Source: a virus | Reading direction: 5' to 3' (one strand) | Virus record (IMG/VR): IMGVR_UViG_3300025890_000190 | Span: 1-21,216 of that record | DNA: 21,216 nt | Part shown: positions 1,295-15,614 of the stretch, piece by piece | How positions within the stretch are numbered: the stretch's first letter is position 1 | How the letters are laid out: every line of letters begins with the position of its first letter | Made by a program: the position numbers and the translations under genes | The notes under the pieces: model-generated | The model's input: only the letters and a program-made list of their open reading frames with translations | Database searches by the model: none | What the model was told of the DNA's origin: nothing

Positions 1295-2457
1295 TATATT
1301 GTTTGACTGTATATATTGTTTTGATCAGCATCCATTTGATTTAATTGATTTAATTTATTTAAATCATCTGTGCTAAATGCTGGACCACCAAGTTCAGATA
1401 ATCTTTGTTTTTTTTGTAAAGCTCTTTGTTGTGCTAAGGCTGGTGAATTAGTTGCTAATGTAGCCATTAAATCATTTGATGGGTATCCTACATCTATACC
1501 CATGATGCCTTCTTGTGGTTGTTGTCCGATAAAATCGTCTTCTAATGGTGTTATAGTTCCAGAATTTACTAATTGTCTTCTATCTGGATAGTTATAACTA
1601 TCTGAAGCAATACCTATGTCTTGATAATCCATTAATTGTCCGTCATTAAAATTTGAACCTAAATATTCAAAATCACTTTGTGGTCTTTGTGCCGCTTCTA
1701 TTAAAGATGATATTTCGTTTATATCAAGTGTAGGTGTTGTTTCTTCAGTTAGTGCAACTTCATCTGTCATAGTGTCTAAACCATCAAACTCACCTGCATC
1801 TATTCTAGCTTGAAGATTTTTAGACTCATCCATATTAATTCTTCTAGCCATTTCTCTTTCATCATATCCACCATATTTTTTCATGTCTAGATAATCCATT
1901 AAACTTGTAGATCTTCCAAAATTAGAATTTTGTATTTTATCATTTAAACTCATCAATCCATCTTTTAATTTACCACCTTGATTAATTAAAAATCCAGCTC
2001 CTGGAATTGCAAAACCAGCAGCTAATTTTAATAAACCTTTTAAAGGATTTGGATTATAATAATCTGTTGTTCTTGCTCCACCTTGATAAGGTGTAAATCT
2101 TGTACCTGCTTGTGCTGCTGCTATTTTATTATTTCTATTTAAAGTATTTATGAAATCATTTCTTGATCTTCTAAAATCTGCACCTGTAATAGGTTTACTG
2201 TCTATAGTTTTAGAAGTGTAAGTTTTTTGTGTAGGTGGGCTATATTGTCTATAATTAGAATCTTGTCCTCCACCACCCCCGCCGATATTACCCTTGCTAC
2301 CACCAGTTCCTTTGTCACCACCTTTACTTGATTTTGATCCACCATAACCACGTCCACCTTGATACTCTCCATCACCTCTATAACCTGGTCTTGAACCATC
2401 CATAGTTTTAGCAACTCTTTGACCTTGTGAATATAGTATTCTTTTATCTATTGACAT
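1294..2457 (-). CDS. Phage virion-associated protein with Gly-rich N-terminal region (387 residues)
   Basis: The ATG at 2457 forms a TAATG overlap with the stop of the 739-residue tail gene and is preceded by a GGAGG Shine-Dalgarno sequence about ten bases upstream. The product starts MSIDKRILYSQGQRVAKTMD. It then has a Gly/Ser/Lys low-complexity stretch (about residues 24-66), a basic region (about 95-125), and a Gly/Ala hydrophobic segment (about 138-160, with LLKLAAGFAIPGAGFLINQ) that could associate with membrane. The C-terminal half is acidic and Gln-rich. Position between tail genes suggests a minor virion or ejection protein, but I cannot name a family. The low-complexity start suggests an unstructured or flexible N-terminus. 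Confidence 0.8.
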   Translation of the reverse strand: MSIDKRILYSQGQRVAKTMDGSRPGYRGDGEYQGGRGYGGSKSSKGGDKGTGGSKGNIGGGGGGQDSNYRQYSPPTQKTYTSKTIDSKPITGADFRRSRNDFINTLNRNNKIAAAQAGTRFTPYQGGARTTDYYNPNPLKGLLKLAAGFAIPGAGFLINQGGKLKDGLMSLNDKIQNSNFGRSTSLMDYLDMKKYGGYDEREMARRINMDESKNLQARIDAGEFDGLDTMTDEVALTEETTPTLDINEISSLIEAAQRPQSDFEYLGSNFNDGQLMDYQDIGIASDSYNYPDRRQLVNSGTITPLEDDFIGQQPQEGIMGIDVGYPSNDLMATLATNSPALAQQRALQKKQRLSELGGPAFSTDDLNKLNQLNQMDADQNNIYSQTI

Positions 2458-4676
2458 TATCGTCTTCCTCCAGCGTGTATATCTAACCTAAAAGTCCCTA
2501 ATTTCCAACTGGTATCTACTGCAGTATTAGATATTGTAAGAGCGATAGCTCTTGCTCTAGCTCGTGTGTCTACTTTTGTAGTGCCAGATGTAATATTAAA
2601 AGGTCCAAGCGATGAACTAGATGCAGTGTCATTAGGATAATTTCTTAAATCTAATTGTACAATAGAGGTTCCTTGTTGAGATATAAAATCAGGTATAATT
2701 CTACTAACTCTCATGATATTTTCACCATCACCTCTAAGGTCACCTAAATTAGTTGCTGCACCTCTAACAACTTTTTGCGTAATGTCATAATCACCAGAGG
2801 TAATATTAGCGGGTATGGCTGTTGTTACTCCAAGTCTTATTTGATTAACTCCTGTTTCATGTTCATAATAATACGTAATCCCCTCTGTATTACCTGTTAC
2901 ATCAAACGAAGTATCTGTGCCTGCATCATACTGAGTTGCATGAGGTAAACCAAATACAGATGAATCTTGCCATGCTGATCTAATAAATAAAGAGCTTGCA
3001 TTTACAAACCATATAGGTCGTTTAGCAGTAGAATCTAAATAACTATATGTAACTGATTGTGTATTGACGTTAGAATTTGCTTCTGGATAAAACCATGTAA
3101 CTTCACCAAACAAATTATTAATCCCAGCATAAATCATTTGATTAGATGTCGTGTTAAGACTATTGTAAACATAATCTTCTACTAAACAATCCATAGATTC
3201 TAGTTTACCAGTGTATCTAAAAAAACCATTTTCAGACATCCAATACGCAGCACCATCAACTTCAACGGCTGCATTCATACCAATTAATCCACAGTTAGTA
3301 CCAACTTGTTCATAAGCAAAAGTAAAAGGAGTACCTACAAAACGCATGGTAAATAAAGCAGTATCACTCCAAACATAAATTGCATTTCTACCAAGTTCAA
3401 CTCCCATGATTCGTGATCCGTCGGCCAGTCTTTGTGTACCAGCACTATTGGTTGCTGTAGGTGCATAATCATTTATATTTTCTTGAGACGAGAATCTTAT
3501 AAACATATCGTCTTGTGATGTTTTATCTCCAATAGTTGTTTCAGTTCCAAAAAATACTAAGTGACGGTCAGGAGTAGATACTAACATATCTCTAGATGCG
3601 GTTGGTGCACCAGTAATAATTGTAGCTCTCGTTTGTGTAGCGTTAGCTAAATCTGCATTCCATTCAAAACATTCACCATTAAATATTAAAGCAATAAGCG
3701 TACTTCCTAAATTATCTAAAGCCCACATACCAGGCTCTGCAACTTTATCAGTAGATGTAGCTGCTGAACCCCATCCGGAAAAACCACTGTAGTTAGTTAC
3801 GGTAGCTCCGTTACTGTGAGAAGCATTAGCTGTTCCTCTAACATTTCTAGTTATTCCTGTAAAACTAGTTGCTGTAAGTCCTGTGTAAGATATTTCTTCA
3901 TTATCTACTTTTATAAAATTTGTTCCTGTGCTTGGAAATCCCGTAGTGCTAGCCACATTAATTGTAGTTCCTGATCCACCAGTTCCAGCAGAGTCAGCAT
4001 TTAATGCTCCATTTAAAGTTGTTGTTTGTGGATTAGTAACTGAACCGCCCCATTGAGATATACCATAACCAAAAACTCCAACCTGTTCAGCAGGACCAAC
4101 ATGGTAATATTGAAAATAAGTCATGCCTCCAGAAGTAGTTGCCCCACCTCCTGTTTCAGTAGCACCAGCGTTAAATTCTAAAGTTGTAGTTGATGGCACT
4201 GCAGTGATCATAAATTTTTTATCAGCAAACGTAGAGGCTGAAAAATTAGATCCCGTGATAGCGCTAAAAGTAGATGCGGCTCCAAATAAAATAATATCTC
4301 CTACAGAAAAATTGTGTGCAGAAGGAAAACTTAAAGTAATAGTTGATTGACCATTGGTTGTACTAAAAAAATTAGTAGCCGCAGTTCCTGATGGATTAAC
4401 TAAAGGATGTATATCATAGTATACTCCTCCAGAATATACATATAAAATTCTATTTGTGCCAATGGCAGCGTATTTAATACCTTGTTTATTAACCATATGA
4501 TGCAAGCCTCTAGCTGCACCGGTTAATTTACTATCTCCTAATTGGGACCAACCGCCTATTTTTTCAGGTGTACCATATCTAAAACGTACATTTTCTCCAC
4601 CTGTCCATTGAGATTCAGCGCCTGTAGATGTAACTTGTTTGTTGAATCCTGGTAAAAATCCTAATTTTTGTAACAT
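2457..4676 (-). CDS. Phage tail/neck structural protein, P22 gp10-like candidate (739 residues)
   Basis: The product starts MLQKLGFLPGFNKQVTSTG, followed by the conserved-looking ESQWTGGENVRFRYGTPEKI and GGW (to about residue 43). This start is typical of a large tail protein of marine podovirus-like phages. Repeated short beta motifs such as YAAIGTNRILYVYSGG (69-84) and STPDRHLVFFGTE suggest a propeller-like fold as in tail-hub or DNA-stabilisation proteins (P22 gp10 type); that comparison is inference. An apparent inserted domain at about 237-295 reads TTINVASTTGFPSTGTNFIK and then VDNEEISYTG...RGTANASHSNGA, a unit seen in many phage surface proteins. Its start lies 49 bases from the GTG of the divergent plus-strand sulfotransferase gene. 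It is the first structural gene after the enzyme cassette and may have its own promoter. Confidence 0.85.
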   Translation of the reverse strand: MLQKLGFLPGFNKQVTSTGAESQWTGGENVRFRYGTPEKIGGWSQLGDSKLTGAARGLHHMVNKQGIKYAAIGTNRILYVYSGGVYYDIHPLVNPSGTAATNFFSTTNGQSTITLSFPSAHNFSVGDIILFGAASTFSAITGSNFSASTFADKKFMITAVPSTTTLEFNAGATETGGGATTSGGMTYFQYYHVGPAEQVGVFGYGISQWGGSVTNPQTTTLNGALNADSAGTGGSGTTINVASTTGFPSTGTNFIKVDNEEISYTGLTATSFTGITRNVRGTANASHSNGATVTNYSGFSGWGSAATSTDKVAEPGMWALDNLGSTLIALIFNGECFEWNADLANATQTRATIITGAPTASRDMLVSTPDRHLVFFGTETTIGDKTSQDDMFIRFSSQENINDYAPTATNSAGTQRLADGSRIMGVELGRNAIYVWSDTALFTMRFVGTPFTFAYEQVGTNCGLIGMNAAVEVDGAAYWMSENGFFRYTGKLESMDCLVEDYVYNSLNTTSNQMIYAGINNLFGEVTWFYPEANSNVNTQSVTYSYLDSTAKRPIWFVNASSLFIRSAWQDSSVFGLPHATQYDAGTDTSFDVTGNTEGITYYYEHETGVNQIRLGVTTAIPANITSGDYDITQKVVRGAATNLGDLRGDGENIMRVSRIIPDFISQQGTSIVQLDLRNYPNDTASSSSLGPFNITSGTTKVDTRARARAIALTISNTAVDTSWKLGTFRLDIHAGGRR

Positions 4677-4725
4677 AAAACCTATTATATTGCTATTATA
4701 CCTAAAATCTACTATTTTCTTATAC
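4677..4725. promoter_or_regulatory. AT-rich divergent intergenic region, candidate promoter(s)
   Basis: This 49-base stretch separates two divergent starts, the 739-residue tail gene (minus) and the sulfotransferase (plus). It is the only divergent junction in the window. On the minus strand an exact TATAAT lies at 4700-4695, about 18 bases before the ATG at 4676. The hexamer 17 bases further upstream (ATAAGA) matches TTGACA at only three of six places. In DNA this AT-rich a TATAAT can occur by chance, so this is only a candidate. No clear plus-strand promoter is visible, and neither gene has a good Shine-Dalgarno sequence. Confidence 0.3.
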
Positions 4726-5319
4726 GTGTTAGTAAATAAAAATCTATTTTATATTCACATTCCAAGAACTGGTGGTCGTTTTATAAGTCATTTGTTTATA
4801 AAAAACAAATTTAATTGTGAATTTCATCAATTTACCAATTACTATGATGACCCTTTAAAAAAATTAATTGAAGTTCCTCATTTAGAATATCCATATTATG
4901 GGCTTTTATATAATCATGAAACTATGACTAAGTTTTCCGTGGTCCGTGATCCAGTAGACAGGTTTATATCTATGTTATCTTGTACAAAACCTACTGAACA
5001 AAACTTAGATAACATATTTAACAGCCAACAAAGTTTAGATGAGTTTATAAATTATAGAATTACAAAGACAAAAAGTAATTGGTTTGTGCCACAGTGCAAA
5101 TTTGTATCTCATGACACAAAAATATGGGCCTACGAAAAAGGTCTACAAGACAATTTTTTTAAATGGATAAAGATTAACTTTAATATTAAATTTAAAAATA
5201 CTAATATAAAATATGACAAAGTTGAGTATGATTTTTATGACAAGATAGAACTATCTAATAAACAAAAAGACCTCGTTAAAAATTATTATTACCAAGATTA
5301 CAAAGTATTTACTTTATAA
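4726..5319 (+). CDS. Sulfotransferase-like protein (197 residues), only plus-strand gene
   Basis: The N-terminal FYIHIPRTGGRFIS (residues 8-21 from the chosen start) matches the PAPS 5'-phosphosulfate-binding loop (IPKTGGT type) of Sulfotransfer_2-like enzymes. VVRDPVDRFISML (72-84) matches the 3'-phosphate-binding motif, with Arg74 and Ser82. The family transfers sulfate from PAPS to a hydroxyl or amine. I chose GTG at 4726 because it places the loop close to the N-terminus, as is usual. An ATG at 4639 in frame would add 29 residues but lies inside the divergent tail gene. No Shine-Dalgarno sequence is visible for either. The 3' end overlaps the convergent methyltransferase gene by 11 bases. 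It differs in sequence type from the two other sulfotransferases of the cassette, so it is not a recent copy of them. Confidence 0.75.
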   Translation: MLVNKNLFYIHIPRTGGRFISHLFIKNKFNCEFHQFTNYYDDPLKKLIEVPHLEYPYYGLLYNHETMTKFSVVRDPVDRFISMLSCTKPTEQNLDNIFNSQQSLDEFINYRITKTKSNWFVPQCKFVSHDTKIWAYEKGLQDNFFKWIKINFNIKFKNTNIKYDKVEYDFYDKIELSNKQKDLVKNYYYQDYKVFTL

Positions 5320-5872
5320 AAACCCACGTATCATCCCACACCACAACACTATTTTTTATTTTATTGTCTTTTAAAAAGTTATGTAATGCTTTCATAATTG
5401 TAGGATTTCTAGCATCATGTCCTGCATAGATACCACCTTTTTTAACTTTACAATACCAATCAGTTATTTCTTTATAAGCTTGTTCATAACTAAGATAACT
5501 GTCAATAAATATAAAATCTAATTTATTGTTTTTTATTTTAGACAAAGCTTTGTTAGTTGTCATTTCTAACATTTTAACTCTGTCCTCTACCCCTGAGTAT
5601 TTAATATTATGATAAGCTAAAAATTTTACAATTTCCATTTCCTTTTGATCTCTAGAATAATAGTCGGTAGCTATGTGGTCTTCATAAGGTTGAAATGCAT
5701 CAACACCATACATTAATTTTACATTAGGTAAAGCTTGTAAAACAGCTAACATACTTTGAGCTTTAAATGTACCGAGCTCACACCCTATTAGATTTTTACC
5801 ATGTGTTCCTATTAAAGGTATTAAACTTCTTATGTCTGCACCAGGTACATCAAACTTATATCTTTCGATCAT
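5309..5872 (-). CDS. SAM-dependent methyltransferase, Methyltransf_24-like (187 residues)
   Basis: Motifs of a class I Rossmann methyltransferase appear in order: CELGTFKAQS (31-40, SAM-binding motif I), YGVDAF (55-60), LDFIFIDSYLSYEQA (118-132, like the IDxxHSYE segment) and KKGGIYAGHDA (144-154). This order and the short length fit the Methyltransf_24 / macrocin-O-methyltransferase-like group, which methylates oxygen or nitrogen on small molecules and sugars. His in IDGxHSY is replaced here by Leu (SYLSYE). The start overlaps the end of the upstream oxygenase by 17 bases, and the end overlaps the plus-strand sulfotransferase by 11. It is the last minus-strand gene of the cassette. A cephalosporin-hydroxylase-like relative is an alternative, since that group has a similar layout. 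Substrate unknown. Confidence 0.8.
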   Translation of the reverse strand: MIERYKFDVPGADIRSLIPLIGTHGKNLIGCELGTFKAQSMLAVLQALPNVKLMYGVDAFQPYEDHIATDYYSRDQKEMEIVKFLAYHNIKYSGVEDRVKMLEMTTNKALSKIKNNKLDFIFIDSYLSYEQAYKEITDWYCKVKKGGIYAGHDARNPTIMKALHNFLKDNKIKNSVVVWDDTWVFIK

Positions 5873-6383
5873 TAATCCATCCTATTATATTTAAATTAAA
5901 AGGTATAGCATATTTAGTGCCTCTTTTTAAAATACCTGTTCCATGTTCCAACATACCTGAAAAAAATAATAACATATTTTTTTTTGGTAATATTTTTAAT
6001 TTAATTTCTGGAAATTCTATGGGTGTTGTAGAGTCAGTTAAATAAATAATACCAGAATAATCTACATTATGAACATGAAATGAAGTGCTATCTCCTTTTT
6101 TCATTTTAATACCCCATGCTTCTTCAAGGTTGCAGTGTGGTATATCTACGTTTTCTTTATTAAATGTTTTAGTTAATAATTGTTGAAATTTTTTATCTGT
6201 TTTAAAAAAATCAAATTCTGTCATACCACCCTTGATATTAGTTTTACGATTTAAATTAGTAGATAAATTTTTATCTATTTTGTTTATAAAATATTTAGTG
6301 TCTAGGTTATTATAAAACCCTTCATAAAATCTTACAGGTTTAACAATTTCACGATCTAATAATTTTGTTTGTTTTAATTTCAT
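5856..6383 (-). CDS. 2-oxoglutarate/Fe(II) oxygenase-like protein, HxH type (175 residues)
   Basis: The core reads STSFHVHNVDYSGIIYLTD (99-117), then ILPKKNMLLFFSGMLEHGTG (131-150). His103 and His105, followed by SGIIYL, fit the HxH...SGVYYL pattern of the 2OG-FeII_Oxy_5-type group. His147 is the distal metal ligand, and Arg154 or Lys157 is a candidate contact for the 2-oxoglutarate carboxylate. Such enzymes usually hydroxylate an unactivated carbon. The gene starts within ATGA (6380-6383) at the stop of the upstream oxygenase and ends inside the methyltransferase gene. The N-terminal 80 residues are Lys/Asn-rich and not recognisable. Substrate unknown. Confidence 0.75.
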   Translation of the reverse strand: MKLKQTKLLDREIVKPVRFYEGFYNNLDTKYFINKIDKNLSTNLNRKTNIKGGMTEFDFFKTDKKFQQLLTKTFNKENVDIPHCNLEEAWGIKMKKGDSTSFHVHNVDYSGIIYLTDSTTPIEFPEIKLKILPKKNMLLFFSGMLEHGTGILKRGTKYAIPFNLNIIGWINDRKI

Positions 6384-6916
6384 TTAACAAGTTCACCACA
6401 AAATTTTACAGATATTCGTGGAATGTATGGTTTATTAAATGCATCAGCTCTGTGTATCTCTGCAGCATTAAACGTAAAGACTCGACCGTGTTTAAAAGAA
6501 ACTTTTTTATTTTGAGTCTTGTTTATAAACTGACCTCCAGGACTTTTAGGTAAATCTTCATTGCACAGCATTAATATAAATACTTGGTGATCAGAATTAC
6601 CGTCACAATGAAACGTACCATCAGAACCATAAAATTGTAGGTTAGCAGATATTTGTTTTAAATATAAATCAACATTAAAACATTTACATAAATGTTCAAA
6701 CAAATTAATAAATTTAGGAGTAAGAGATGTTGTCTTAGCAGTGTAATGATTTTCTCTTAAATATATATCATTAACCATTAATAAATGACTTCCTTTATCT
6801 CCATACGGAAAAGTGTTTCTATTGGCTATGTTGTCTGCAAACCAAGGACTTTTTAATAAATCATAATAAAGTTCGTCAGCAAATCTTTTGTCTAAAATAT
6901 TATCTAAAGTATGCAT
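6380..6916 (-). CDS. 2-oxoglutarate/Fe(II) oxygenase, HxD type (178 residues)
   Basis: The double-stranded beta-helix core is clear. GTFHCDGNSDHQVFILMLCN (100-119) contains His103-x-Asp105. PGGQF (126-130) is the usual turn, and HGRVFTFNAAEIHRADAF (143-160) carries the distal His155. PRISVKF (166-172) carries Arg167 for 2-oxoglutarate. The complete HxD...H...R set predicts an active hydroxylase. It follows the halogenase gene with a one-base TAATG overlap at 6916 and precedes the next oxygenase with an ATGA overlap, so it is likely co-translated with both. Similar proteins are frequent in marine phage genomes, mostly without a known substrate. Confidence 0.85.
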   Translation of the reverse strand: MHTLDNILDKRFADELYYDLLKSPWFADNIANRNTFPYGDKGSHLLMVNDIYLRENHYTAKTTSLTPKFINLFEHLCKCFNVDLYLKQISANLQFYGSDGTFHCDGNSDHQVFILMLCNEDLPKSPGGQFINKTQNKKVSFKHGRVFTFNAAEIHRADAFNKPYIPRISVKFCGELVK

Positions 6917-8322
6917 TACATTTCAAAAAAGTCAGAGTGTTTTATAGATTGTTTAAAGTTAATTTTATTTGTATCTATGTAATCTTTCATAGATGGAAAC
7001 GGATTGTAAAAAGTCATATCTTTCTTTTTTTTAATTAGACCTAAAGCATGGCTGACAACAATATGACCAATGTAAGTAAAATACAAATTGCCTTTTTGTG
7101 ATAATAGATCTGGTATTGTAAAAGAACCATCTTCTATTTTTTTTATTATAGGTTTTAATTTTGCAGGCATGACCGTATTTTTTCTAAAGTCTTTCCAAAA
7201 CGGACTGTCTTTTCTTTTTGTCATGTAATGTAAATATAAAAAACTTAAAATGTTGTCGTTGTTTTCTGCAACAATTTCATTGTATTTATCTAATGACCCT
7301 TGATTTAAAGTTTTTATATTTGACAGAAAATGTTGTAATAATTGTAAAGAAGATAAAGCCAACCAAATGCTTGTAGCTTCTAAAGGTTCAGTAAAACCTG
7401 TGCTTAGTCCTACTGCTAAACAATTACCAACCCATACTTTTTTATATCTACCAGCATCAAATTTAAACGAAGGTCGTAATGCTTTTAGATCTTGTTTAAA
7501 ATATTTACTGGCTTCAGCTATGGCTTGGTCCTCATTAATATAATCAGAATCGTAAATATAACCTGACCCCCATCTTTCTTGCAAAGGTATTTTCCACACC
7601 CAACCATATTTCATTGCCACCGCTTCAGTGTAAGGAATTAAATCTTTGTCATGTTTTAACTTGAATGGAACTGCTCTTTTCATTGGCAAGTGTTTTTGAT
7701 AACTTACCCAAGGAGTATTAAAGTGTTTGCCTATTAACAATCTAGCAAAACCACTGCAATCAAATATAAAATCACAATCAAATTTTCTTTTGTCAGTTAA
7801 AACTATAGACTTAATTTTATTTTTACCAATAGCTTTTTTGTATTCCCCTTCTATTCTTTTTACCCCTCTGCCTATGGCAATAGATTTAAGATATTTTGCT
7901 ATTTGATGTGCATCAAAATGTAAAGCATATGTACAATTGTTAGGGTCAATGCGATTAGCATAACTTATTTTATTTGCGTATAAAAAATCATCTATGTTTT
8001 TATTTTTGTTTAATGCTTCATGTAACAGATAACTTGTTTCATCACCTGTAAACGGATGAAAGTATTGTTTATTATCACCATTCCAATTTTTAAAACTAAT
8101 ACCATTTTTAAACGTACCACCTGTTTTTTTAATTAGATCTAATGGATCTATATCTAAAAAACGTAGACTTTCTATAACACCTGGAGTCGTACCTTCTCCT
8201 GCACCTAGAATACCTATTTTATCAGATTCAATTAATGTTACATCGTGTCCATAAAAATATTTATTACAATACAAAGCTGTAAACCACCCTGCAGCTCCCC
8301 CGCCTAATATAACTATTTTCAT
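6916..8322 (-). CDS. FAD-dependent halogenase, tryptophan-halogenase family (468 residues)
   Basis: The family signatures are complete. GGGAAGW (7-13) is the FAD-binding GxGxxGW motif, and GGTFKNGISFKNW (68-80) carries Lys72, which aligns with the catalytic Lys79 of PrnA. GWVWKIPL (240-247) is the WxWxIP motif that separates halogenases from monooxygenases. GNCLAVGLSTGFTEPLEATS (299-318) has Glu315 in the place of PrnA Glu346. The enzyme is expected to oxidise halide through a flavin hydroperoxide and halogenate an electron-rich ring. It would need reduced flavin from a host reductase, since none is visible here. At 468 residues it is shorter than the roughly 510-540 of bacterial tryptophan halogenases, closer to the phage type. 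A cyanophage member (VirX1) has been reported to act on diverse substrates, preferring iodide. Joined by ATGA (8319-8322) to the upstream sulfotransferase and by TAATG to the downstream oxygenase. Confidence 0.92.
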   Translation of the reverse strand: MKIVILGGGAAGWFTALYCNKYFYGHDVTLIESDKIGILGAGEGTTPGVIESLRFLDIDPLDLIKKTGGTFKNGISFKNWNGDNKQYFHPFTGDETSYLLHEALNKNKNIDDFLYANKISYANRIDPNNCTYALHFDAHQIAKYLKSIAIGRGVKRIEGEYKKAIGKNKIKSIVLTDKRKFDCDFIFDCSGFARLLIGKHFNTPWVSYQKHLPMKRAVPFKLKHDKDLIPYTEAVAMKYGWVWKIPLQERWGSGYIYDSDYINEDQAIAEASKYFKQDLKALRPSFKFDAGRYKKVWVGNCLAVGLSTGFTEPLEATSIWLALSSLQLLQHFLSNIKTLNQGSLDKYNEIVAENNDNILSFLYLHYMTKRKDSPFWKDFRKNTVMPAKLKPIIKKIEDGSFTIPDLLSQKGNLYFTYIGHIVVSHALGLIKKKKDMTFYNPFPSMKDYIDTNKINFKQSIKHSDFFEM

Positions 8323-9068
8323 ATGTCGTACCCTTTATATTTATCTATAATAGATTGAGGCAATACATCTTTGTAAGAATACTTTCTTTTAGATATATCG
8401 TCAGTTCTAATTGTATGAAGCGAATAGCCTAACACATCATCTTTGTACTTTATGCCGTTTGCTTCAAACTGTTTAAGTTTTTTTAATTCTATATTTGCAT
8501 GCAAATATTTACTAAGATCTTTTAAAAATGTTTTAGTGTTGTTAACTAAATCATCATAATAAAAAATTTTATAATCTTCTTTGTTTTCTATTATATTTTT
8601 ATTACTAATAAGGTAATGCATCATAATGCCCGATCCATAACCAGCGCCACCATGGTGATACATTAAAGAATGACATCTTTTTTCTACGTCTTTTACCTTT
8701 TCCGCTAATACCATAGACGCTAGACATTCTAATATAGGTCTATGTAGGATTATAAATTTAGGTTTTTGGTAAACTTTTTTTAAACATTTAAGATTAGCTG
8801 GAGTGCCCCAAGGGCCTCTATCTATAACATGTGTAGATCTCCAATCTGCATAATAGTTATTAAATACATTAACAGATATATTATCTAAAGATTTTTGATC
8901 AGGAAAATTTTTATATATTTCAGAGTCTTTCAACGTTTCTAAATTATACATAACGTCAGTAAGAATTGTGTTAGCTGACATTTTTACATAAGGGTTTTGA
9001 TTTATTATAGATCCTAGAAGCGTGTTGCCTGCACGAGGAAGTGATGATAAAAAATACATGTTCATCAT
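8319..9068 (-). CDS. Sulfotransferase-like protein (249 residues), paralogue 1
   Basis: The N-terminus has SSLPRAGNTLLGSIINQNP (8-26), a standard PAPS-binding loop (PRxGxTLL). FIILHRPILECLASMV (105-120) is the 3'-phosphate-binding motif with Arg110 and Ser118. The segment VIDRGPWGTPANL (81-93) recurs almost unchanged in the other minus-strand sulfotransferase at 11646-12377, together with SIINQNP and IRTD. The two are therefore paralogues from a duplication that has since diverged. It probably transfers sulfate from host PAPS to a hydroxyl on an unknown acceptor. ATGA overlaps join it to the JmjC-like gene upstream and the halogenase downstream. The length (about 250 residues) is normal for soluble sulfotransferases, and no membrane anchor is present. 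Confidence 0.8.
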   Translation of the reverse strand: MMNMYFLSSLPRAGNTLLGSIINQNPYVKMSANTILTDVMYNLETLKDSEIYKNFPDQKSLDNISVNVFNNYYADWRSTHVIDRGPWGTPANLKCLKKVYQKPKFIILHRPILECLASMVLAEKVKDVEKRCHSLMYHHGGAGYGSGIMMHYLISNKNIIENKEDYKIFYYDDLVNNTKTFLKDLSKYLHANIELKKLKQFEANGIKYKDDVLGYSLHTIRTDDISKRKYSYKDVLPQSIIDKYKGYDI

Positions 9069-9478
9069 AATGTATAATCAACACTCATTGATATACCTGC
9101 TCTTGGTCCTTTAGCTTCTACGCCATGCCATGTTTTTTTAGGTATATAAAGTAAGTCTCCTGTATTTAATTTTATTTTACGGTCATCAAATATCCAATTA
9201 GATATTCCTTTTACTTGCCAGAAATAAACATCTACACCATCCCAATGTCTACCCATAGTATCACCCTCACACAAATTAATGTATAAGTGAGCATCATTTA
9301 AATTTAATTTTTTAAGAACAGGTTTTACTTCTTTTATTTTTTTAGCTTGATGAGATATTAAAAAACCAGGACACTTGTGTTTAACAATTTTTTTATTTTG
9401 TATAGACCAATTTAAATTATCTAAAATCGTTTCCCACGACGGCACATTCATATTATATTTTTTAGTGTGTTTAATCAT
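9065..9478 (-). CDS. Mini JmjC/cupin-like Fe(II) oxygenase (137 residues)
   Basis: The core reads HLYINLCEGDTMGRHWDGVD (64-83), then VYFWQVKGISNWIF (84-97) and GDLLYIPKKTWHGVEAKGPR (107-126). His78-x-Asp80 and distal His118 form the metal triad. The pattern HxDxxDVFxxQxxGxxxW resembles the JmjC/Cupin_4 group that includes ribosomal oxygenases such as YcfD, which hydroxylate a protein side chain. At 137 residues it is much shorter than those enzymes (over 350) and lacks the usual dimerisation and winged-helix parts, so it is close to a bare catalytic core. It could instead be a plain cupin. It overlaps the upstream oxygenase by 8 bases and the downstream sulfotransferase by ATGA. Confidence 0.75.
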   Translation of the reverse strand: MIKHTKKYNMNVPSWETILDNLNWSIQNKKIVKHKCPGFLISHQAKKIKEVKPVLKKLNLNDAHLYINLCEGDTMGRHWDGVDVYFWQVKGISNWIFDDRKIKLNTGDLLYIPKKTWHGVEAKGPRAGISMSVDYTL

Positions 9479-9998
9479 GAAAGCAGCTGTTAAATGATAT
9501 TATAGTTTTTCTTTTTGTACTTTTAAATTTAGGTGAAGTATGTAAGACATGTCCTGGCAAAGTAACTAACGTTCCTTCTTTAGCCTCAATAGTATTAATT
9601 TCATCTGTAAAAGGATTTTTTATTTTTGTAAACATAGATTTTGTTGGAGCTTCTACATAATAAATATTAGTCCAATTAGTTTTATCGTGTCTATGCCAAT
9701 TGTGATAATCCATTTGTTTATATTGTTGATACCAGCCATTCCAAATTGACCATTGTTTAGCTTTTAATTGTTTAGCTATTTCAAACATTGTGGGTCTAAT
9801 GTTATTATAAAAATAAGTTAGGTATTCTCGTTTATAATTTTTAGGTAAATTCCAATCGGTTTTACTAATACATTCTGTTTTAGTTACAAAACGATTGTTA
9901 GGCATTTTGTTTATTAATTGTAATAATCTTTTGTTAAAAGATTTGTAACCATCAATAGAATTTAACATATAAAAATCTTGAAAATATTTTACTTTCAT
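9471..9998 (-). CDS. 2-oxoglutarate/Fe(II) oxygenase-like protein, HxH/HD type (175 residues)
   Basis: The segment WYQQYKQMDYHNWHRHDKTN (89-108), followed by WTNIYYV (109-115), matches a phage-type 2OG oxygenase in which the first metal ligands fall in the HNWHRHD stretch (His99, His102, His104, Asp105). EGTLVTLPGHVLHTSPKF (141-158) holds the distal His153, and Arg163 in TKRKTIISFN is a likely 2-oxoglutarate contact. The exact first ligands cannot be fixed without an alignment: His102-x-His104 aligns best with the HxH group, but Asp105 is adjacent. It joins its upstream neighbour by ATGA (9995-9998). Cyanophages carry similar proteins next to tail genes, with no assigned substrate as far as I recall. 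Confidence 0.78.
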   Translation of the reverse strand: MKVKYFQDFYMLNSIDGYKSFNKRLLQLINKMPNNRFVTKTECISKTDWNLPKNYKREYLTYFYNNIRPTMFEIAKQLKAKQWSIWNGWYQQYKQMDYHNWHRHDKTNWTNIYYVEAPTKSMFTKIKNPFTDEINTIEAKEGTLVTLPGHVLHTSPKFKSTKRKTIISFNSCFHD

Positions 9999-10558
9999 AC
10001 AAATGTAATTACAGCTACTACCCTTCTTTCCATAGGTTTACAAAACGAAGCTGTGTGATAGTATTTACCATCCCAACATACAGCTTTGCCAAACTCTGGT
10101 TTTATTCTTTTAAGAATTTTTAATTTTTTTGTAACATCTAATACTGTTTTTTTACCATTGTAAATTTTATCAAATATTAAAGTATCTCCTGACGTATCAT
10201 TTAGATACAACATAAAAACTTTATGGGGAAAATCATGGTCTACATGTGGATCACCGTTTTTATATTTACCATGAAAATGCGTAAGATTAATACATGCTCT
10301 AGTTACTTTATCTATTTTTATCTCATGTTCATCTACAAATCTTTTAAACATATTTAATATGTGAGGAGTAATATCAGAATTAAATACAGGCTCACCTTTA
10401 GTATGATCGTATCTTTGTATTAAACCATGAGAAAAAAAATGAAACTTGTTAGATGTAGAGCTTGGTTGAAAATACCAAGGAAAGTTATCTCCTAAAACAG
10501 TTTGTTTAAGTTGGTATATTTCTTCGTCAAATAAAAATCTTTTACTTTCTGTAATCAT
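9995..10558 (-). CDS. 2-oxoglutarate/Fe(II) oxygenase, HxD type (187 residues)
   Basis: GDPHVDHDFPHKVFMLYLND (102-121) carries His105-x-Asp107 and the typical strand that follows. SGDTLIFD (123-130), FGKAVCWDGKYYHTASF (156-172) with distal His168, and RRVVAVITF (178-186) with Arg178/179 complete the set. All residues needed for Fe(II) and 2-oxoglutarate are present, so an active hydroxylase is expected. The motif pattern is close to that of the enzyme at 6380-6916 (HCDG...FNAAEIHRADAF), suggesting the two arose from the same group. ATGA overlaps connect it on both sides. The acceptor is unknown. Confidence 0.85.
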   Translation of the reverse strand: MITESKRFLFDEEIYQLKQTVLGDNFPWYFQPSSTSNKFHFFSHGLIQRYDHTKGEPVFNSDITPHILNMFKRFVDEHEIKIDKVTRACINLTHFHGKYKNGDPHVDHDFPHKVFMLYLNDTSGDTLIFDKIYNGKKTVLDVTKKLKILKRIKPEFGKAVCWDGKYYHTASFCKPMERRVVAVITFV

Positions 10559-11121
10559 TTAAAAGGATCTCCTAACGCCCATGCAACTAAAGCATATCTT
10601 GTTCCTTTTTTTACAGGTTTAACTGTATGCATTGTAGGACTGGGAAATACTACAACACTTCCTTTGTTTTTAAATTTAATAGGTTTAAAATCTACTACCT
10701 TACCTCTTTGTAATGTTCTAAATATAAAATCACCTCCAACATAATCTTGTTTACTAGAAAGATTAATAGACATAGATAATTTTCTTATTTTACCATTGTC
10801 AAAAGGTTCTGTAAGAGTATCCTCATGCCAATTAAAATGATCATTTTTATTGTATTGAGCTAATTGTATATCTTCAAACATATCAAATTGATAACGATAA
10901 CCACCTTTCTGATTAGCTTTATCAAAGTAAGGTAATATTAAATCATGAAACATTTGTGGTTTTTTCCATATTACTTGACCTCTGCGTTGTTTATAATCTG
11001 ATTTAACACCTGCTAATGTAGCTTTAGTTTTTTTACTACATTTAATTAAATCAATTATTTCATCACAAACACTTTCTTTAACAACTCTGTCAAAAACGTA
11101 ACAAATATTTTTATGAAGCAT
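10555..11121 (-). CDS. Prolyl-4-hydroxylase-like (PKHD-type) 2OG/Fe(II) oxygenase (188 residues)
   Basis: DIQLAQYNKNDHFNWHEDTL (84-103) contains His99-x-Asp101 in the usual P4H position (QY...Y.WH.D). LSMSINLSSKQDYVGGDFIF (115-134) is the conserved strand-turn (SxxLNLSxxxxYxGGxF). KGSVVVFPSPTMHTVKPVKK (153-172) contains distal His165, and GTRYALVAWALG (173-184) gives Arg175. This is the most canonical 2OG oxygenase of the set, resembling PiuC/PKHD-type proteins and the P4Hc domain. It would hydroxylate a side chain or small molecule. Its start overlaps the previous gene by 11 bases and its stop forms ATGA with the next gene. Confidence 0.88.
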   Translation of the reverse strand: MLHKNICYVFDRVVKESVCDEIIDLIKCSKKTKATLAGVKSDYKQRRGQVIWKKPQMFHDLILPYFDKANQKGGYRYQFDMFEDIQLAQYNKNDHFNWHEDTLTEPFDNGKIRKLSMSINLSSKQDYVGGDFIFRTLQRGKVVDFKPIKFKNKGSVVVFPSPTMHTVKPVKKGTRYALVAWALGDPFK

Positions 11122-11674
11122 CGGGTAGTATCCAATTAAACCAACCAGTAATTATTTGTTTAGTTTCATTAAAATCTATTACACCTTGATGGGTAAACGT
11201 CCAATCCGCTGGCCATATTAAAGTTAATCCTTTTTTTCCTTCTTGATAATAATCTTGGTATTTAAAATATGTTCCATTACTATCTGTTAAATAAGTCATA
11301 AATACTAGTAATCTAGTAAAGGTATGGTTTTCTCTTTCAAAATGAGGTTTGTAAAAACCTTGTCCAGGTTTGTATTGTTGAATATTTATAGGCTCTATTA
11401 TACCCCATCTGTTAGTGGCTTGTTCTAATTCAGGATATTTAAATTTGTATGTATTAGTTACTTTAACTAAGTCATTGCTGTAAAGTGGTAAGTCATCATA
11501 AAGTTCATCAGGACTTAAAGATAAATCTCTTGACTCTTTTACGTCAGCTTGAACCAAACCCTCACCACACGTACCTTCTTTAATTCTTTTTTTATTTTTT
11601 TTGTAGTACTTAACTACTTCGTCAACAGCTTTAGAACTAATAGTTTCAGAGTGAATAAACAAAGGACTTTTCAT
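11111..11674 (-). CDS. Prolyl-4-hydroxylase-like 2OG/Fe(II) oxygenase with HxE triad (187 residues)
   Basis: INIQQYKPGQGFYKPHFERE (96-115) matches the P4H pattern QYxxGxxYxxHxD, but with Glu113 in place of Asp (His111-x-Glu113). RLLVFMTYLTDSNGTYFKYQ (121-140) is the next strand and turn. GLTLIWPADWTFTHQGVI (149-166) holds His162, and Lys172 in TKQIITGWF takes the position of the 2-oxoglutarate-binding basic residue, where Lys is usual in collagen-type prolyl hydroxylases. The HxE form is rarer than HxD but can still bind iron. It overlaps the upstream sulfotransferase by 29 bases, the longest overlap in the cassette, and no other ATG exists in the first half of the protein. Substrate unknown. 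Confidence 0.82.
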   Translation of the reverse strand: MKSPLFIHSETISSKAVDEVVKYYKKNKKRIKEGTCGEGLVQADVKESRDLSLSPDELYDDLPLYSNDLVKVTNTYKFKYPELEQATNRWGIIEPINIQQYKPGQGFYKPHFERENHTFTRLLVFMTYLTDSNGTYFKYQDYYQEGKKGLTLIWPADWTFTHQGVIDFNETKQIITGWFNWILPDAS

Positions 11675-12377
11675 ATTTTTTAATTACCTCTAGTGGCACT
11701 TTTCTAATAAACTTGTGTTTTATAGATTTAATTTTGTCAGTCCTTATTTTAGTTTGTTCGTGTTTTTCGTCTATCTGATCTAAATCCTCATACCTATGTT
11801 TTTTATAATAAGGTATTTTTAAAAACTTATATAATTCTTTGACAATCTTTTGAGGTTGTTTACAAAAATCATGGTAGTTAATAATCAACACATTTTTTTC
11901 TTTAACTTCTTTTAAATAATTTAAACCTAAAACAGATTTACCAATCGGTCCAGATTCATGCATTAAATAATCACAAAAGTTTTCTACATGATGTGGTTTA
12001 GGTCTAACAACTCTACAAAAAGATTCTAGTATTTCTCGAAGTGGTCTTACCAAATATATAAATTTTCCTTTGTAACCCATGTACTTTAACAATTCATAAT
12101 TAGCAGGTGTACTCCAAGGGCCTCTGTCTATAATAGCTTTAGCTTTAGAATCTTTGTAATAGTTTTGAGGAATAGCACTTAATACATTCTTAAAAGATTT
12201 TTCATCTTTTTGTTCTTGATAAATAGTTCCTTCTTGTAAAAGATGCATGTTGTAAATCATTTCTGGTACAATGCTGTTAGGACTAATATTAAGTTCTGGA
12301 TTTTGATTTATAATAGATGTTAATACGGTATTACCGCATCGCATGTAACCACATAAAAAAAACATATCTTTCTTCAT
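11646..12377 (-). CDS. Sulfotransferase-like protein (243 residues), paralogue 2
   Basis: The PAPS-binding loop is CGYMRCGNTVLTSIINQNP (9-27), which aligns with SLPRAGNTLLGSIINQNP of the paralogue at 8319-9068. Here the loop proline is replaced by Met and a Cys follows the Arg. FIYLVRPLREILESF (106-120) holds the 3'-phosphate motif with Arg111 and Ser119, and AIIDRGPWSTPAN (81-93) is the shared paralogue segment. The core resembles other PAPS sulfotransferases in length. The loop change is conservative (the RxGNT part is intact), so activity is still plausible. It starts by ATGA (12374-12377) after an oxygenase and ends inside the next oxygenase gene. Acceptor unknown; a difference in acceptor from the paralogue is likely but not shown. 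Confidence 0.77.
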   Translation of the reverse strand: MKKDMFFLCGYMRCGNTVLTSIINQNPELNISPNSIVPEMIYNMHLLQEGTIYQEQKDEKSFKNVLSAIPQNYYKDSKAKAIIDRGPWSTPANYELLKYMGYKGKFIYLVRPLREILESFCRVVRPKPHHVENFCDYLMHESGPIGKSVLGLNYLKEVKEKNVLIINYHDFCKQPQKIVKELYKFLKIPYYKKHRYEDLDQIDEKHEQTKIRTDKIKSIKHKFIRKVPLEVIKKYEKSFVYSL

Positions 12378-12859
12378 ATTTTAATATCCCATGATATAAT
12401 TGTCCTCTTTATACTCTTCTTAATTGGATTTGTAAAGTGTAATATGTGTGCAGGAAATATTATAATGTCTCCTTCTTTTATTGTAGGTGTGACAATTACA
12501 GTTTTATTAGTTATCGGATCATTCCAAGGTTGAATAAAAGAAGTTCCTATATCGGTATCAAGATACAGTATTGCAGAATATCCTAAACTTCCGTGGGTGT
12601 GTGGTTGGTGAAAATCATTTTTATGATATTGAACAGACCACATATCGGTAACAGAAAATTTACCTATCATATTTTTTATATCATTCATTTCTACTTGTAG
12701 TATTTTTAATACTTCATTTTTATATTTAGAAATCTTTCTATCTGTTTTTATATTGTCTTCCTTATACCTCTGTCCTAAAAACTTATTTATTCTAGCTTTT
12801 TTAATTAACCAGTTTTTACAACTAAGTTTGTGATAAGGTATACTAAATAAAGGTTCCAT
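12374..12859 (-). CDS. 2-oxoglutarate/Fe(II) oxygenase-like protein, HxH type (161 residues)
   Basis: WSVQYHKNDFHQPHTHGSLG (74-93), followed by YSAILYLD (94-101), is a clear match to the HxH...SGxxYL oxygenase pattern, with His87 and His89 the candidate first ligands. IKEGDIIIFPAHILHFTNPI (127-146) carries the distal His141, and Arg152 (KRTIISWD) fits the 2-oxoglutarate-binding position. It is most like the cassette's first gene (LHTHGGEDFSLIYYI). It starts 17 bases before the stop of the carbamoyltransferase gene and ends in an ATGA overlap with the sulfotransferase. No Shine-Dalgarno sequence is visible, so translation probably depends on coupling. Confidence 0.8.
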   Translation of the reverse strand: MEPLFSIPYHKLSCKNWLIKKARINKFLGQRYKEDNIKTDRKISKYKNEVLKILQVEMNDIKNMIGKFSVTDMWSVQYHKNDFHQPHTHGSLGYSAILYLDTDIGTSFIQPWNDPITNKTVIVTPTIKEGDIIIFPAHILHFTNPIKKSIKRTIISWDIKI

Positions 12860-14384
12860 TATTTTTGTGTAAATAGTTTATTTCTGGCATGTATAAATAT
12901 TTAAGATCGGTTGTATTTAACATCTCAATAGCTTGATTATAATTATTAATCATTGGTTTACCGGCAATATTTAACGAAGTGTTTAAAAGTACAGGACATT
13001 TTGTTTTTTTATACCATGTTTTTAACAACCTATAAAACATAGGATTTTGTGTTTGTGTTAGCGTTTGGACTCTACAAGTATTATCAACGTGTGTTATGCC
13101 AGGGATAATTTTAGGTTTTTTTACTTGTGCAGTATAACTCATAAAAGGTGTTTCTTCTTTAGGTAAATCAAACCAATGTTTATAGTGTTCTTTTAATACT
13201 GTACCGGCGTAGGGTCTATACCATTCTCTTCTTTTTAATTGATTTACTATTTCTTTTGCTTGTGGATTCATGGGGTTAAACAATAAAGATCTATTACCCA
13301 AGGCTCGAGGACCTGCTTCTTGTTTTCCTTGAAACAATGCAACTATATTATTATTCAATAATAAATCTACTATCTCATCAACATTAGTATTTTTATCTAA
13401 CAACGGATAGTCTGTCTCTAATCCTAAATACAAATTATCATATGGTTTAACTTTGATATTGTTATCCATGGCTGCAAGCAAAGCTAAACCCATAGATGTT
13501 CCTCCATCGTGAGCTATAGGATCTACAAATATATTTTTATAATGTCTAAGAGCATGACCGTTTGATTGACAGTTTTGAAAATAACCACCAGACAAACATA
13601 TATTAGCTTTTTTATTTTTTCTTAATATTTTTTCTATTCTATTAATAACAAGTTCGTTAGATTCTTTTTGTATACTATGTGTTATTTTATACTTGTCATG
13701 ATTTAATTTTACCATCATCTGCCACAACAAACTTTGATTAACTTTATACAGATCATTGTTTTTATAATAAACAGGAATGTTTAAACCTGTGTTACTATAC
13801 GAGGACAAACCCATTACAGAACCTGGTTCGTTAGAATCTAAATATTTTGCAGCATATTTAAAAAGTAAACCTGGACTCATACTTTGTATGCTGTGTATGT
13901 TTTCTGTATAACTTTTATCTTGACCAACACAAACTTTCCATTCTAAACTAAATTTATTGTTTTTTATTTTATAAATACTTTCTATTTCAGGTCCTATGTT
14001 TTTTCCCTGCCAATAAAAAGGAGTACCACTTCCATCCATAACTAAACAATAAGCATCTTTATATCCACTATTAAAATAAGCAGAAGCTGCGTGTTGTAAA
14101 TGATGATGTAGATTATATTGAATGCTATTATAGGTTATGTTGTATTTTTCACAATTTAAGGAAATAAAATCTTTGTATTGTTGTGCTGTTTCATGATTAA
14201 GTTTAGCATGACTAAAAACAATTATATCGTAATATTGATTAGATAATTCTTTCCATAAAAATTTAATATTGTAATCTTTCTTAATACCAGACAGCATAGC
14301 TTCTTCTTGATAGAAAGTAATACGATTGTTATCTATGATACAAGCACTGGCATCATGTGCACACTGTAAACCTAATATTTTCAT
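12843..14384 (-). CDS. O-carbamoyltransferase, NodU/CmcH/TobZ family (513 residues)
   Basis: Two-domain carbamoyltransferase, apparently full length. The Kae1-like N-terminal domain shows GLQCAHDASACIIDN (5-19), HHHLQHAASAYF (93-104) and MDGSG (116-120). Later segments are CLSGGYFQNCQSNG (263-276) and DPIAHDGGTSMG (288-299). The YrdC-like C-terminal domain shows QGKQEAGPRALGNRS (352-366) and PVLLNTSLNIAGKP (464-477). The family makes carbamoyl-adenylate from carbamoyl phosphate and ATP and moves the carbamoyl group to a hydroxyl of an antibiotic, Nod factor or sugar. I chose the ATG at 14384 because it forms the ATGA junction with the upstream gene and begins MKILGLQ as relatives do. An ATG seven codons earlier (14405) gives an atypical leader. 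Confidence 0.9.
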   Translation of the reverse strand: MKILGLQCAHDASACIIDNNRITFYQEEAMLSGIKKDYNIKFLWKELSNQYYDIIVFSHAKLNHETAQQYKDFISLNCEKYNITYNSIQYNLHHHLQHAASAYFNSGYKDAYCLVMDGSGTPFYWQGKNIGPEIESIYKIKNNKFSLEWKVCVGQDKSYTENIHSIQSMSPGLLFKYAAKYLDSNEPGSVMGLSSYSNTGLNIPVYYKNNDLYKVNQSLLWQMMVKLNHDKYKITHSIQKESNELVINRIEKILRKNKKANICLSGGYFQNCQSNGHALRHYKNIFVDPIAHDGGTSMGLALLAAMDNNIKVKPYDNLYLGLETDYPLLDKNTNVDEIVDLLLNNNIVALFQGKQEAGPRALGNRSLLFNPMNPQAKEIVNQLKRREWYRPYAGTVLKEHYKHWFDLPKEETPFMSYTAQVKKPKIIPGITHVDNTCRVQTLTQTQNPMFYRLLKTWYKKTKCPVLLNTSLNIAGKPMINNYNQAIEMLNTTDLKYLYMPEINYLHKNNGTFI

Positions 14385-14971
14385 TGTGTAATTTTTGTGT
14401 TCCAAGCTAAACTAATTCTATCTTCATCACTTTTATTAGATTCTACAGAGTGAGCTAACCAACTAGGAAATATTATAAGATCATATTTTTTAGGAACATA
14501 ACGTATTTCTGGAGAATTAAAAAAAGGTTGGTTGTTATATTTTAATTCACTTGTTCTAAGATGAAGTACGGGAGTTTCAAATACTATTGCACCAGAATTT
14601 TGAGGAACTTGTATGTAATATATTAATGAAAAATCCTCACCTCCATGAGTGTGTAATGCATTAAAAGATTCTTTTTTATTTATATTTATCCAAGGTAAAT
14701 GATTATTACAAGACCATGGTTTTAACAGTCCTATTTCTTCAGCAAACTCTGTAAAATATTTTTGAGTGCTTTTTATTAAATCTTCTAATAACTTATCTTT
14801 TAAAAAGTCAGATTGATAACCTGATCTATTACTTTTTTTAACTCCTTCAAATTTATTAACTTGATAAGCTAATCTTTTTAAACTGGCATTTATTTTTTTA
14901 TGAGATTTTTTTAAATTAAAAATAAAAAAAGGAGTGCCAAATAAATTATAAATCTGTCTTTCGTTACTCAC
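14381..14971 (-). CDS. 2-oxoglutarate/Fe(II) oxygenase, 2OG-FeII_Oxy_5-like, HxH type (196 residues)
   Basis: First gene of the cassette. The product begins SNERQIYNLFGTPFFIFNL and contains FNALHTHGGEDFSLIYYIQV (103-122), the HxH...SxxYY segment with His107 and His109. YDLIIFPSWLAHSVESN (163-179) holds the distal His174, and DRISLAWN (184-191) has Arg185. The ending IFPSWLxHxVxPN...RISLAWN is a hallmark of this group. No ATG exists anywhere in the frame: the start is GTG at 14971, which I chose because the protein then begins close to the family start, or TTG at 14989. Neither has a Shine-Dalgarno sequence. It lies 34 bases after the last gene of structural block 1 and overlaps the carbamoyltransferase by ATGA. 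Confidence 0.78.
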   Translation of the reverse strand: MSNERQIYNLFGTPFFIFNLKKSHKKINASLKRLAYQVNKFEGVKKSNRSGYQSDFLKDKLLEDLIKSTQKYFTEFAEEIGLLKPWSCNNHLPWININKKESFNALHTHGGEDFSLIYYIQVPQNSGAIVFETPVLHLRTSELKYNNQPFFNSPEIRYVPKKYDLIIFPSWLAHSVESNKSDEDRISLAWNTKITQ

Positions 14972-15005
14972 GAGTGTTTTATAACACAATTATATTATTT
15001 GTAAA

Positions 15006-15614
15006 TTAAAGAGAAGGACTCCAGGCCGTACCATTCCAATTTCTTTTAGAGCCATCGTTGTGCCAACCCCACCAAACTTGGTTTTCTTCGTCCCATTGAA
15101 CAGGTATTCTGTTTTCTGGTAAAGTAATTTCATCTCCATCGGTATTTGTTACAGTCACGTAATTTATACCTTGGATAAATCCATTTTCATTTGTAGGATT
15201 TACAGGTCTTTGAGTAACAGGATCTAGAATAGACTCAAAAGAATCACTTCCATAATATCTTTGTTCTTCTGTAGGTTCTGCTACAGGTGGTTGCCATTGA
15301 TAATTTCCATCTAGCACCCAACTATCAAAAGGTTTAGAGTCTATAAAAACATCGTTTGCTGGGTCATATGTGCCCCCTATTTTAGCAGCATTGCCTCTGT
15401 AAGGGTCACCTGAAGGAGCATTTACAAATCTGCTATTTCCCACAGTCCACATAGAATATTTTTTGATATTAGCTGTTTGATCGTTTAAAAGATTTCTTAA
15501 AAATTCAACACCTTTTGCTTCGTTTTCTACACCCTCTACAGAGCAATCTATATCAGAGACTCTGTATAAATCAGTTACCACATTATTGCTATCTAGTTTA
15601 CAAAAATTTGCCAT
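15006..15614 (-). CDS. Conserved phage virion protein (202 residues), last gene before the enzyme cassette
   Basis: The product begins MANFCKLDSNNVVTDLYRVS and contains IGGTYDPANDVFIDSKPFDS (78-97) followed by WVLDGNYQWQPPVAEPTEEQ (98-117). This segment resembles a small protein common in cyanophage and pelagiphage structural regions (there read as GxxYDxxxDxFIxPKPxxSWxL...WxxPxPxP), so I call it a conserved virion protein. The C-terminus is Trp-rich (VWWGWHNDGSKRNWNGTAW). It begins one base after the stop of the glycine-rich gene. It ends at 15006 with no hairpin terminator before the cassette, so transcription probably continues into it. Function in the particle unknown; a fibre-tip or decoration role is possible. 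Confidence 0.83.
   Translation of the reverse strand: MANFCKLDSNNVVTDLYRVSDIDCSVEGVENEAKGVEFLRNLLNDQTANIKKYSMWTVGNSRFVNAPSGDPYRGNAAKIGGTYDPANDVFIDSKPFDSWVLDGNYQWQPPVAEPTEEQRYYGSDSFESILDPVTQRPVNPTNENGFIQGINYVTVTNTDGDEITLPENRIPVQWDEENQVWWGWHNDGSKRNWNGTAWSPSL

Follow-up and report, generated by a model that had tools for sequence, protein, structure and literature searches.

On what would a probable virus-encoded halogenase act when its gene lies among genes for sulfotransferases, oxygenases and the tail side of the particle? This is the question raised by the locus described here, and we address it in the window, by which we mean the whole stretch of viral DNA that was analysed (21,216 bases). 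The genomes of the nearest phage relatives are about 58-61 kb and the window record is probably a genome fragment, so genes absent from it mean little. Its structural genes resemble those of the pelagiphage podoviruses HTVC023P and HTVC027P and of phage 023Pt_psg01 (44-45% for the 739-aa structural protein, STR739), and all three phages carry 2OG oxygenases at the site of the window's cassette. The window is from a pelagiphage-like podovirus with a cassette inserted between tail-side genes. Of the 14 genes in this cassette, eight encode 2OG-oxygenase-like proteins and two sulfotransferase-like proteins; the remaining four are for the halogenase, a carbamoyltransferase, a methyltransferase and a JmjC/cupin protein. 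The halogenase gene is the fourth counted from the downstream end. The GC content is 27-30% in the cassette compared to 32-44% outside it. The cassette genes and the tail-side genes around them are the following.

2457..4676, minus strand: STR739, virion structural protein (phrog_3287), on the cassette's far side
5309..5872, minus strand: MT, methyltransferase (Methyltransf_24 / TylF-like)
5856..6383, minus strand: OxA, 2OG-Fe(II) oxygenase (phrog_81; PF13759 under cut-off)
6380..6916, minus strand: OxB, 2OG-Fe(II) oxygenase-like, 178 aa (by motif and fold; phrog_274)
6916..8322, minus strand: HAL, flavin-dependent halogenase-type protein (PF04820), 468 aa
8319..9068, minus strand: ST1, sulfotransferase-like, 249 aa (PF13469 23.8 bits, cut-off 27; aligned with ST2)
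9065..9478, minus strand: CUP, cupin / JmjC_2 hydroxylase-like (PF08007 45.9 bits, PF07883 30.3 bits)
9471..9998, minus strand: OxC (2OG-FeII_Oxy_5)
9995..10558, minus strand: OxD, 2OG oxygenase-like (phrog_274; weak PF13640)
10555..11121, minus strand: OxE (2OG-FeII_Oxy_3)
11111..11674, minus strand: OxF (2OG-FeII_Oxy_3, slightly under cut-off)
11646..12377, minus strand: ST2, sulfotransferase (PF00685)
12374..12859, minus strand: OxG (2OG-FeII_Oxy_5)
12843..14405, minus strand: CBT, NodU-type carbamoyltransferase (PF16861/PF02543, phrog_1601; start codon uncertain)
14381..14989, minus strand: OxH (2OG-FeII_Oxy_5; start codon uncertain)
15006..15614, minus strand: TF1, phage tail-side protein, 202 aa (phrog_7759)
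15616..16398, minus strand: GLY, glycine-rich-domain protein (PF21722), co-inherited with the cassette

The ST1 homologue in a more distant phage, contig L141, scores above the sulfotransferase cut-offs, as does ST2, the paralogue of ST1. A third sulfotransferase-like ORF, STplus, lies on the plus strand at 4639-5319, has a TTG start and overlaps the ends of STR739 and MT; it matches PF03567 (27.0 bits) and phrog_3347, galactose-3-O-sulfotransferase, and has no match in the relatives compared.

The preliminary description had proposed an intact halogenase with Lys72, WVWKIP and Glu315, and our analysis bears this out: the ORF at 6916-8322 (minus strand) is intact, the residues lie at the positions given, and the PF04820 profile (E 1.2e-109, 368 bits against a cut-off of 21, residues 2-432) and phrog_2928, 'tryptophan halogenase' (1.4e-112), agree on the family. 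The GxGxxG motif, the catalytic Lys (Lys72, within GGTFKNGI), WxWxIP (WVWKIP, residues 241-246) and the active-site Glu (Glu315, within GFTEPLEATS) are all present. Across 28 aligned viral homologues Lys72, Trp241, Trp243 and Pro246 are invariant and Glu315 is kept in 24, the other 4 having His; the latter are from L038, L040, L045 and L048, and those included in our tree cluster tightly together. At position 316 the window protein has Ala, in contrast to the Ser of PyrH, RebH and VirX1, and this we count against our best explanation. An AlphaFold2 model of the protein (pLDDT 90.3, pTM 0.90) has flavin-dependent halogenases (FDHs) as its best solved fold matches, with Z-scores of 48.8 for SttH, 46.8 for Xcc4156, 46.3 for BrvH, 46.1 for PrnA, 45.4 for PyrH and 38.0 for VirX1; against solved PF04820 FDHs overall, Z is 38-49 and rmsd 2.2-2.8 over 443-464 residues. 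Among the fold matches is the lanthipeptide halogenase MibH, an FDH that acts on a peptide.

Could the protein instead be a flavin monooxygenase of the QhpG or LodB kind, with protein-bound Trp as its substrate? The structure of QhpG is similar to that of halogenases, and its reaction is the dihydroxylation of peptidyl Trp (PMC7876137); the window protein gives weak NCBIfam matches to both. However, these matches reach 34.8 bits for QhpG (cut-off 240) and 21.5 bits for LodB (cut-off 400), scores that are far too weak for such an assignment and similar to those of VirX1, whereas PF04820 stands at 368 bits with Lys72, WVWKIP and Glu315 all in place. We therefore set this type of enzyme aside as very unlikely. 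The window protein is probably an active halogenase-type enzyme and, from its motifs and predicted fold, probably a flavin-dependent halogenase belonging to the PF04820 superfamily ('tryptophan halogenase', variant A).

The chemistry of FDHs, with FADH2, O2 and halide, is established for PrnA, RebH and PyrH. The window enzyme would take FADH2 from a reductase of the host or one encoded elsewhere, and FADH2, O2 and halide would give hypohalous acid at the flavin; this would pass down a tunnel to Lys72, and Lys72 and Glu315 would direct electrophilic halogenation of an aromatic ring (FDHs and their chemistry are reviewed in PMC8407142). As the preliminary description had noted, there is no flavin reductase among the 20 window proteins scanned with Pfam, to which we give little weight in a fragment of 21,216 bases.

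Phage halogenases are already well known, being listed for 20 of 153 cyanophages in a review (PMC10452541), and 83 phage records matched the window halogenase in our database search. The nearest cultured relative in this search is a protein of Pelagibacter phage HTVC008M (AGE60413.1, 44.6% over 96%), whose gene is already annotated as a tryptophan halogenase and lies beside a 2OG oxygenase. VirX1 is, to our knowledge, the only viral halogenase that has been characterised; it is CPUG_00131 of phage Syn10, the sequence of which aligns end to end with 6QGM, and it had been put forward as the nearest precedent. By descent it is not, for it is 28% identical to the window protein, HTVC008M is closer, and the two proteins fall in separate clades. 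The window halogenase belongs to a viral clade of ten sequences (SH-aLRT 100), which also includes the HTVC008M type and further contigs, while VirX1 groups with S-B64 and another protein of Syn10, and PyrH and RebH form a clade apart from the window protein. The AU test rejects a group of VirX1 with the window clade (p 0.0002), which rules out VirX1 as its sister; a looser clade that holds all viral sequences in the tree together is not rejected (p 0.13). The window protein was not placed among non-halogenating monooxygenases in a tree that was built from PF04820 halogenases with no non-halogenating PF04820-like outgroup. It did not group with the free-tryptophan halogenases PyrH and RebH, and activity on free Trp is not indicated for it. 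The tree built here holds no characterised enzyme in the clade of the window halogenase.

What, then, do the neighbouring genes say about the substrate? The preliminary description placed the halogenase in an operon with a sulfotransferase upstream and an oxygenase downstream, and this arrangement is confirmed, with a sulfotransferase-like gene in the upstream place: the ST1 gene overlaps the halogenase gene by 4 nt (ATGA) and the OxB gene overlaps it by 1 nt (TAATG). It also held that these overlaps tie halogenation, sulfation and hydroxylation to one product, and here we disagree. All 13 junctions inside the 14-gene cassette overlap, so the overlaps with ST1 and OxB do not single out a three-enzyme unit, and one relative (L004) swaps OxB for a different gene; translational coupling is ruled out as proof of a single product.

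OxB has no Pfam match. All 7 aligned sequences keep its HxD...H...R motif (H103, D105, H155 and R167) unchanged, and the OxB model (pLDDT 80.8) matches the double-stranded beta-helix of the viral collagen prolyl hydroxylase vCPH, of AlkB homologues (ABH2) and of PHD2 with TM about 0.5-0.6. Motif and fold together rule out a DNA endonuclease V, which is the label of phrog_274. This label is carried by phrog_274 and several cyanophage genes (the genes so labelled are window 6380-6916 and 9995-10558, L148:5435-5989 and L142:15264-15812), and the members examined resemble 2OG-Fe(II) oxygenases; against PF13640, phrog_274-type genes score 37.4 bits in S-SSM7 and, weakly, 20.0 bits in P-SSM2. A gene of HTVC008M labelled DNA endonuclease V (L056:27696-28178) has no such Pfam match. 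The label is probably a misannotation that has spread.

The cassette is found in three divergent viral lineages, and its order is largely kept in L002, L003, L004 and L005, which come from separate metagenomes. ST1 lies immediately before HAL in these four contigs (4-nt overlap) and in L141 (11-nt overlap). This adjacency is kept in every cassette relative but that of the downstream OxB is not, as OxB is present in L002 and L003 and L004 has an APS-kinase-like gene instead. Just 3' of the halogenase region, at L003:11926-12658 and L004:11410-12136, we observed an APS-kinase-like P-loop protein together with a CTP_transf-like nucleotidyltransferase. The APS-kinase-like score is 25.0 bits in L004 and 20.3 bits in L003 (cut-off 21.1) and the PDB matches are mostly adenylate kinases; a role of the pair in PAPS supply for the sulfotransferases is suggestive only. 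Scanning viral contigs with the carbamoyltransferase returned no relatives, a result that is uninformative with this pattern-based method.

The halogenase is 97% identical to that of L002, 85% to that of L003 and 71% to that of L004, and dN/dS is 0.034, 0.071 and 0.140, respectively, the latter two values being rough because of nearly saturated synonymous sites. Purifying selection on the gene is thus strong. This matters for the view that the cassette is a non-adaptive pile of acquired genes with no joint function, which would fit its low GC, its varying content among relatives and the frequency of 2OG oxygenases in marine phages (PMC3037559). Such a pile is hardly to be expected when the genes analysed are under purifying selection and gene order is conserved across divergent relatives, and we consider it extremely unlikely.

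The tail-side genes provide a further line of evidence. TF1 is 87% identical in L002, 76% in L003 and 39% in L004, and GLY is 86% and 78% identical in L002 and L003, whereas STR739 reaches only 42-46% in L002, L003 and L004 (46% in L002, 42% in L003). In L141 the pattern is reversed, with 68% for STR739 and 71% for S143 against 46% for HAL and 33% for TF1, and no match to GLY. By these identities, which come from 4 contigs, the cassette travels with TF1 and GLY, next to a structural gene that is not the same; the mosaic could also arise without functional linkage if the entire region were exchanged in one piece. TF1 may be a substrate of the cassette. It is the most Trp-rich structural protein in the window (9 Trp in 202 aa), and its Trp 99, 107 and 174 are invariant. 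These Trp also occur in phages with no halogenase seen in the stretch read, which makes a tail substrate only a guess. A C-terminal insertion in TF1 is common to the four cassette phages, but as a modified stretch it is weakened by its absence from L141, which has HAL and ST1. In HTVC023P, 023Pt_psg01, DSL-LC04, S-MS29 and S-SSM5, 2OG oxygenase genes are adjacent or close to those for TF1-family proteins; in Bellamy and HTVC025P no oxygenase is annotated near the TF1-family gene.

There are two other kinds of product to which the cassette might contribute. The first, implied by the preliminary description, is a diffusible small-molecule metabolite, such as a halogenated, sulfated and carbamoylated compound, which the cassette would make or tailor to alter the infected host or exclude rivals and on which the halogenase would act. 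Characterised natural-product FDHs do act on small molecules, VirX1 takes many small aromatics in vitro (PMC8407142), and carbamoyltransferases, sulfotransferases and methyltransferases are typical tailoring enzymes. However, no NRPS, PKS, RiPP precursor, terpene or sugar-nucleotide synthase gene is present among the window proteins scanned, and the cassette is located within the structural module and travels along with tail-side genes, so that we regard a metabolite as unlikely. The second is a surface glycan, linked to the phage or of the host, that would be tailored by the sulfotransferases, carbamoyltransferase and methyltransferase, with the halogenase acting on its aromatic part. The galactose-3-O-sulfotransferase match of STplus, the glycosyltransferases annotated near the homologous region in HTVC023P and HTVC027P, and the S-SSM7 halogenase with its carbamoyltransferase, Nol, oxygenase and sugar-nucleotide genes all point this way; yet sugars are not FDH substrates by established chemistry and a glycosyltransferase was not found among the window proteins scanned. 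A glycan of this kind is possible but doubtful.

Our best explanation as a whole is that the halogenase and the late cassette act on a tail or other surface macromolecule, a reading for and against which we find the case evenly balanced. The late tailoring cassette would decorate a macromolecule of host recognition, either a tail-fibre protein or its glycan, and Trp or Tyr would be our guess for the halogenated residue. A surface macromolecule is favoured because of the location of the cassette, its co-inheritance with TF1 and GLY, the MibH precedent and the hydroxylase partners; that this macromolecule would in the first place be a protein of the tail side, or the glycan on it, is a guess to which we give rather less than an even chance. 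In its most specific form, the phage would halogenate, sulfate, hydroxylate and carbamoylate its own TF1 and/or GLY in a virus-encoded line of post-translational modification, for binding to a host receptor or for evasion; a partnership of halogenases and hydroxylases around TonB-dependent receptors would be the bacterial parallel. This joint reading we hold to be improbable. We know of no halogenated or sulfated phage tail proteins, and such proteins, if real, would be a first among phages. 2OG oxygenases, halogenases and carbamoyltransferases have long been known in marine phages, where they are usually treated singly as host-metabolism genes (PMC3037559, PMC2984593). With these enzymes and sulfotransferases gathered in a single conserved cassette that travels alongside tail-side proteins, a puzzle of long standing can be put to the test. 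In the open-licence literature we found no description of pelagiphage halogenases, of a tail-fibre cassette of oxygenases, carbamoyltransferase and sulfotransferases, or of the halogenase-hydroxylase pairing.

This pairing, as judged from gene neighbourhoods, occurs in both phages and bacteria. BrvH (6FRL), Xcc4156 (6Y1W) and the Pseudoalteromonas protein 9LUQ are among the closest folds to the window halogenase, but are about 26-30% identical to it and form a separate bacterial clade; their kin have Cupin_8/JmjC hydroxylases, SapC and TonB-dependent-receptor-like ORFs as gene neighbours. The 60 proteins adjoining bacterial halogenases (loci L060-L139) include 22 that match Cupin_8, 10 JmjC_2, 10 DUF6445 and 8 SapC, where one protein may match several families. 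A consensus drawn from 32 large ORFs of the bacterial loci contains the plug motif of a TonB-dependent receptor, and we read the large ORFs near bacterial halogenases as such receptors from this motif. PrnA, RebH and PyrH share the PF04820 fold and catalytic motifs with the window enzyme, although PyrH and RebH are in a separate clade.

Among the viruses, VirX1 (Syn10, PDB 6QGM) is likewise a viral FDH with the same fold and the Lys and WxWxIP motifs, and differs in having ESTG where the window halogenase has EATS, besides its low identity and separate clade. By gene content its neighbourhood is of the same kind as that of the window halogenase: in the Syn10 locus (L055:10473-20113) a second, overlapping halogenase gene precedes VirX1 and several 2OG-oxygenase-like ORFs follow. 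Many relatives have a 2OG oxygenase gene that runs into the start of the halogenase gene; L013 and L014 do not, having a gene of another kind immediately upstream. In HTVC008M, too, a 2OG-type oxygenase gene lies upstream of the halogenase gene and overlaps it, within a structural module. HTVC008M is, however, a T4-like myovirus, in which the halogenase (L056:14974-16377) lies between the terminase small and large subunit genes and away from the tail fibres, with neither a sulfotransferase nor a carbamoyltransferase annotated nearby. S-SSM7 combines a halogenase with a carbamoyltransferase and an oxygenase, in a cluster (L148:2063-11628) that holds the halogenase, carbamoyltransferase, Nol, an oxygenase labelled denV, a carbohydrate kinase, a phosphoheptose isomerase and nucleotidyltransferases, with an epimerase gene just beyond. 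S-SSM5 and S-MS29 have a TF1-family protein with a carbamoyltransferase and 2OG oxygenases but no halogenase in the stretch read, and no sulfotransferase is annotated in these two or in S-SSM7. The window halogenase adds to the known phage halogenases, and its cassette is a variation on the oxygenase and carbamoyltransferase clusters known from marine phages, with sulfotransferases added.
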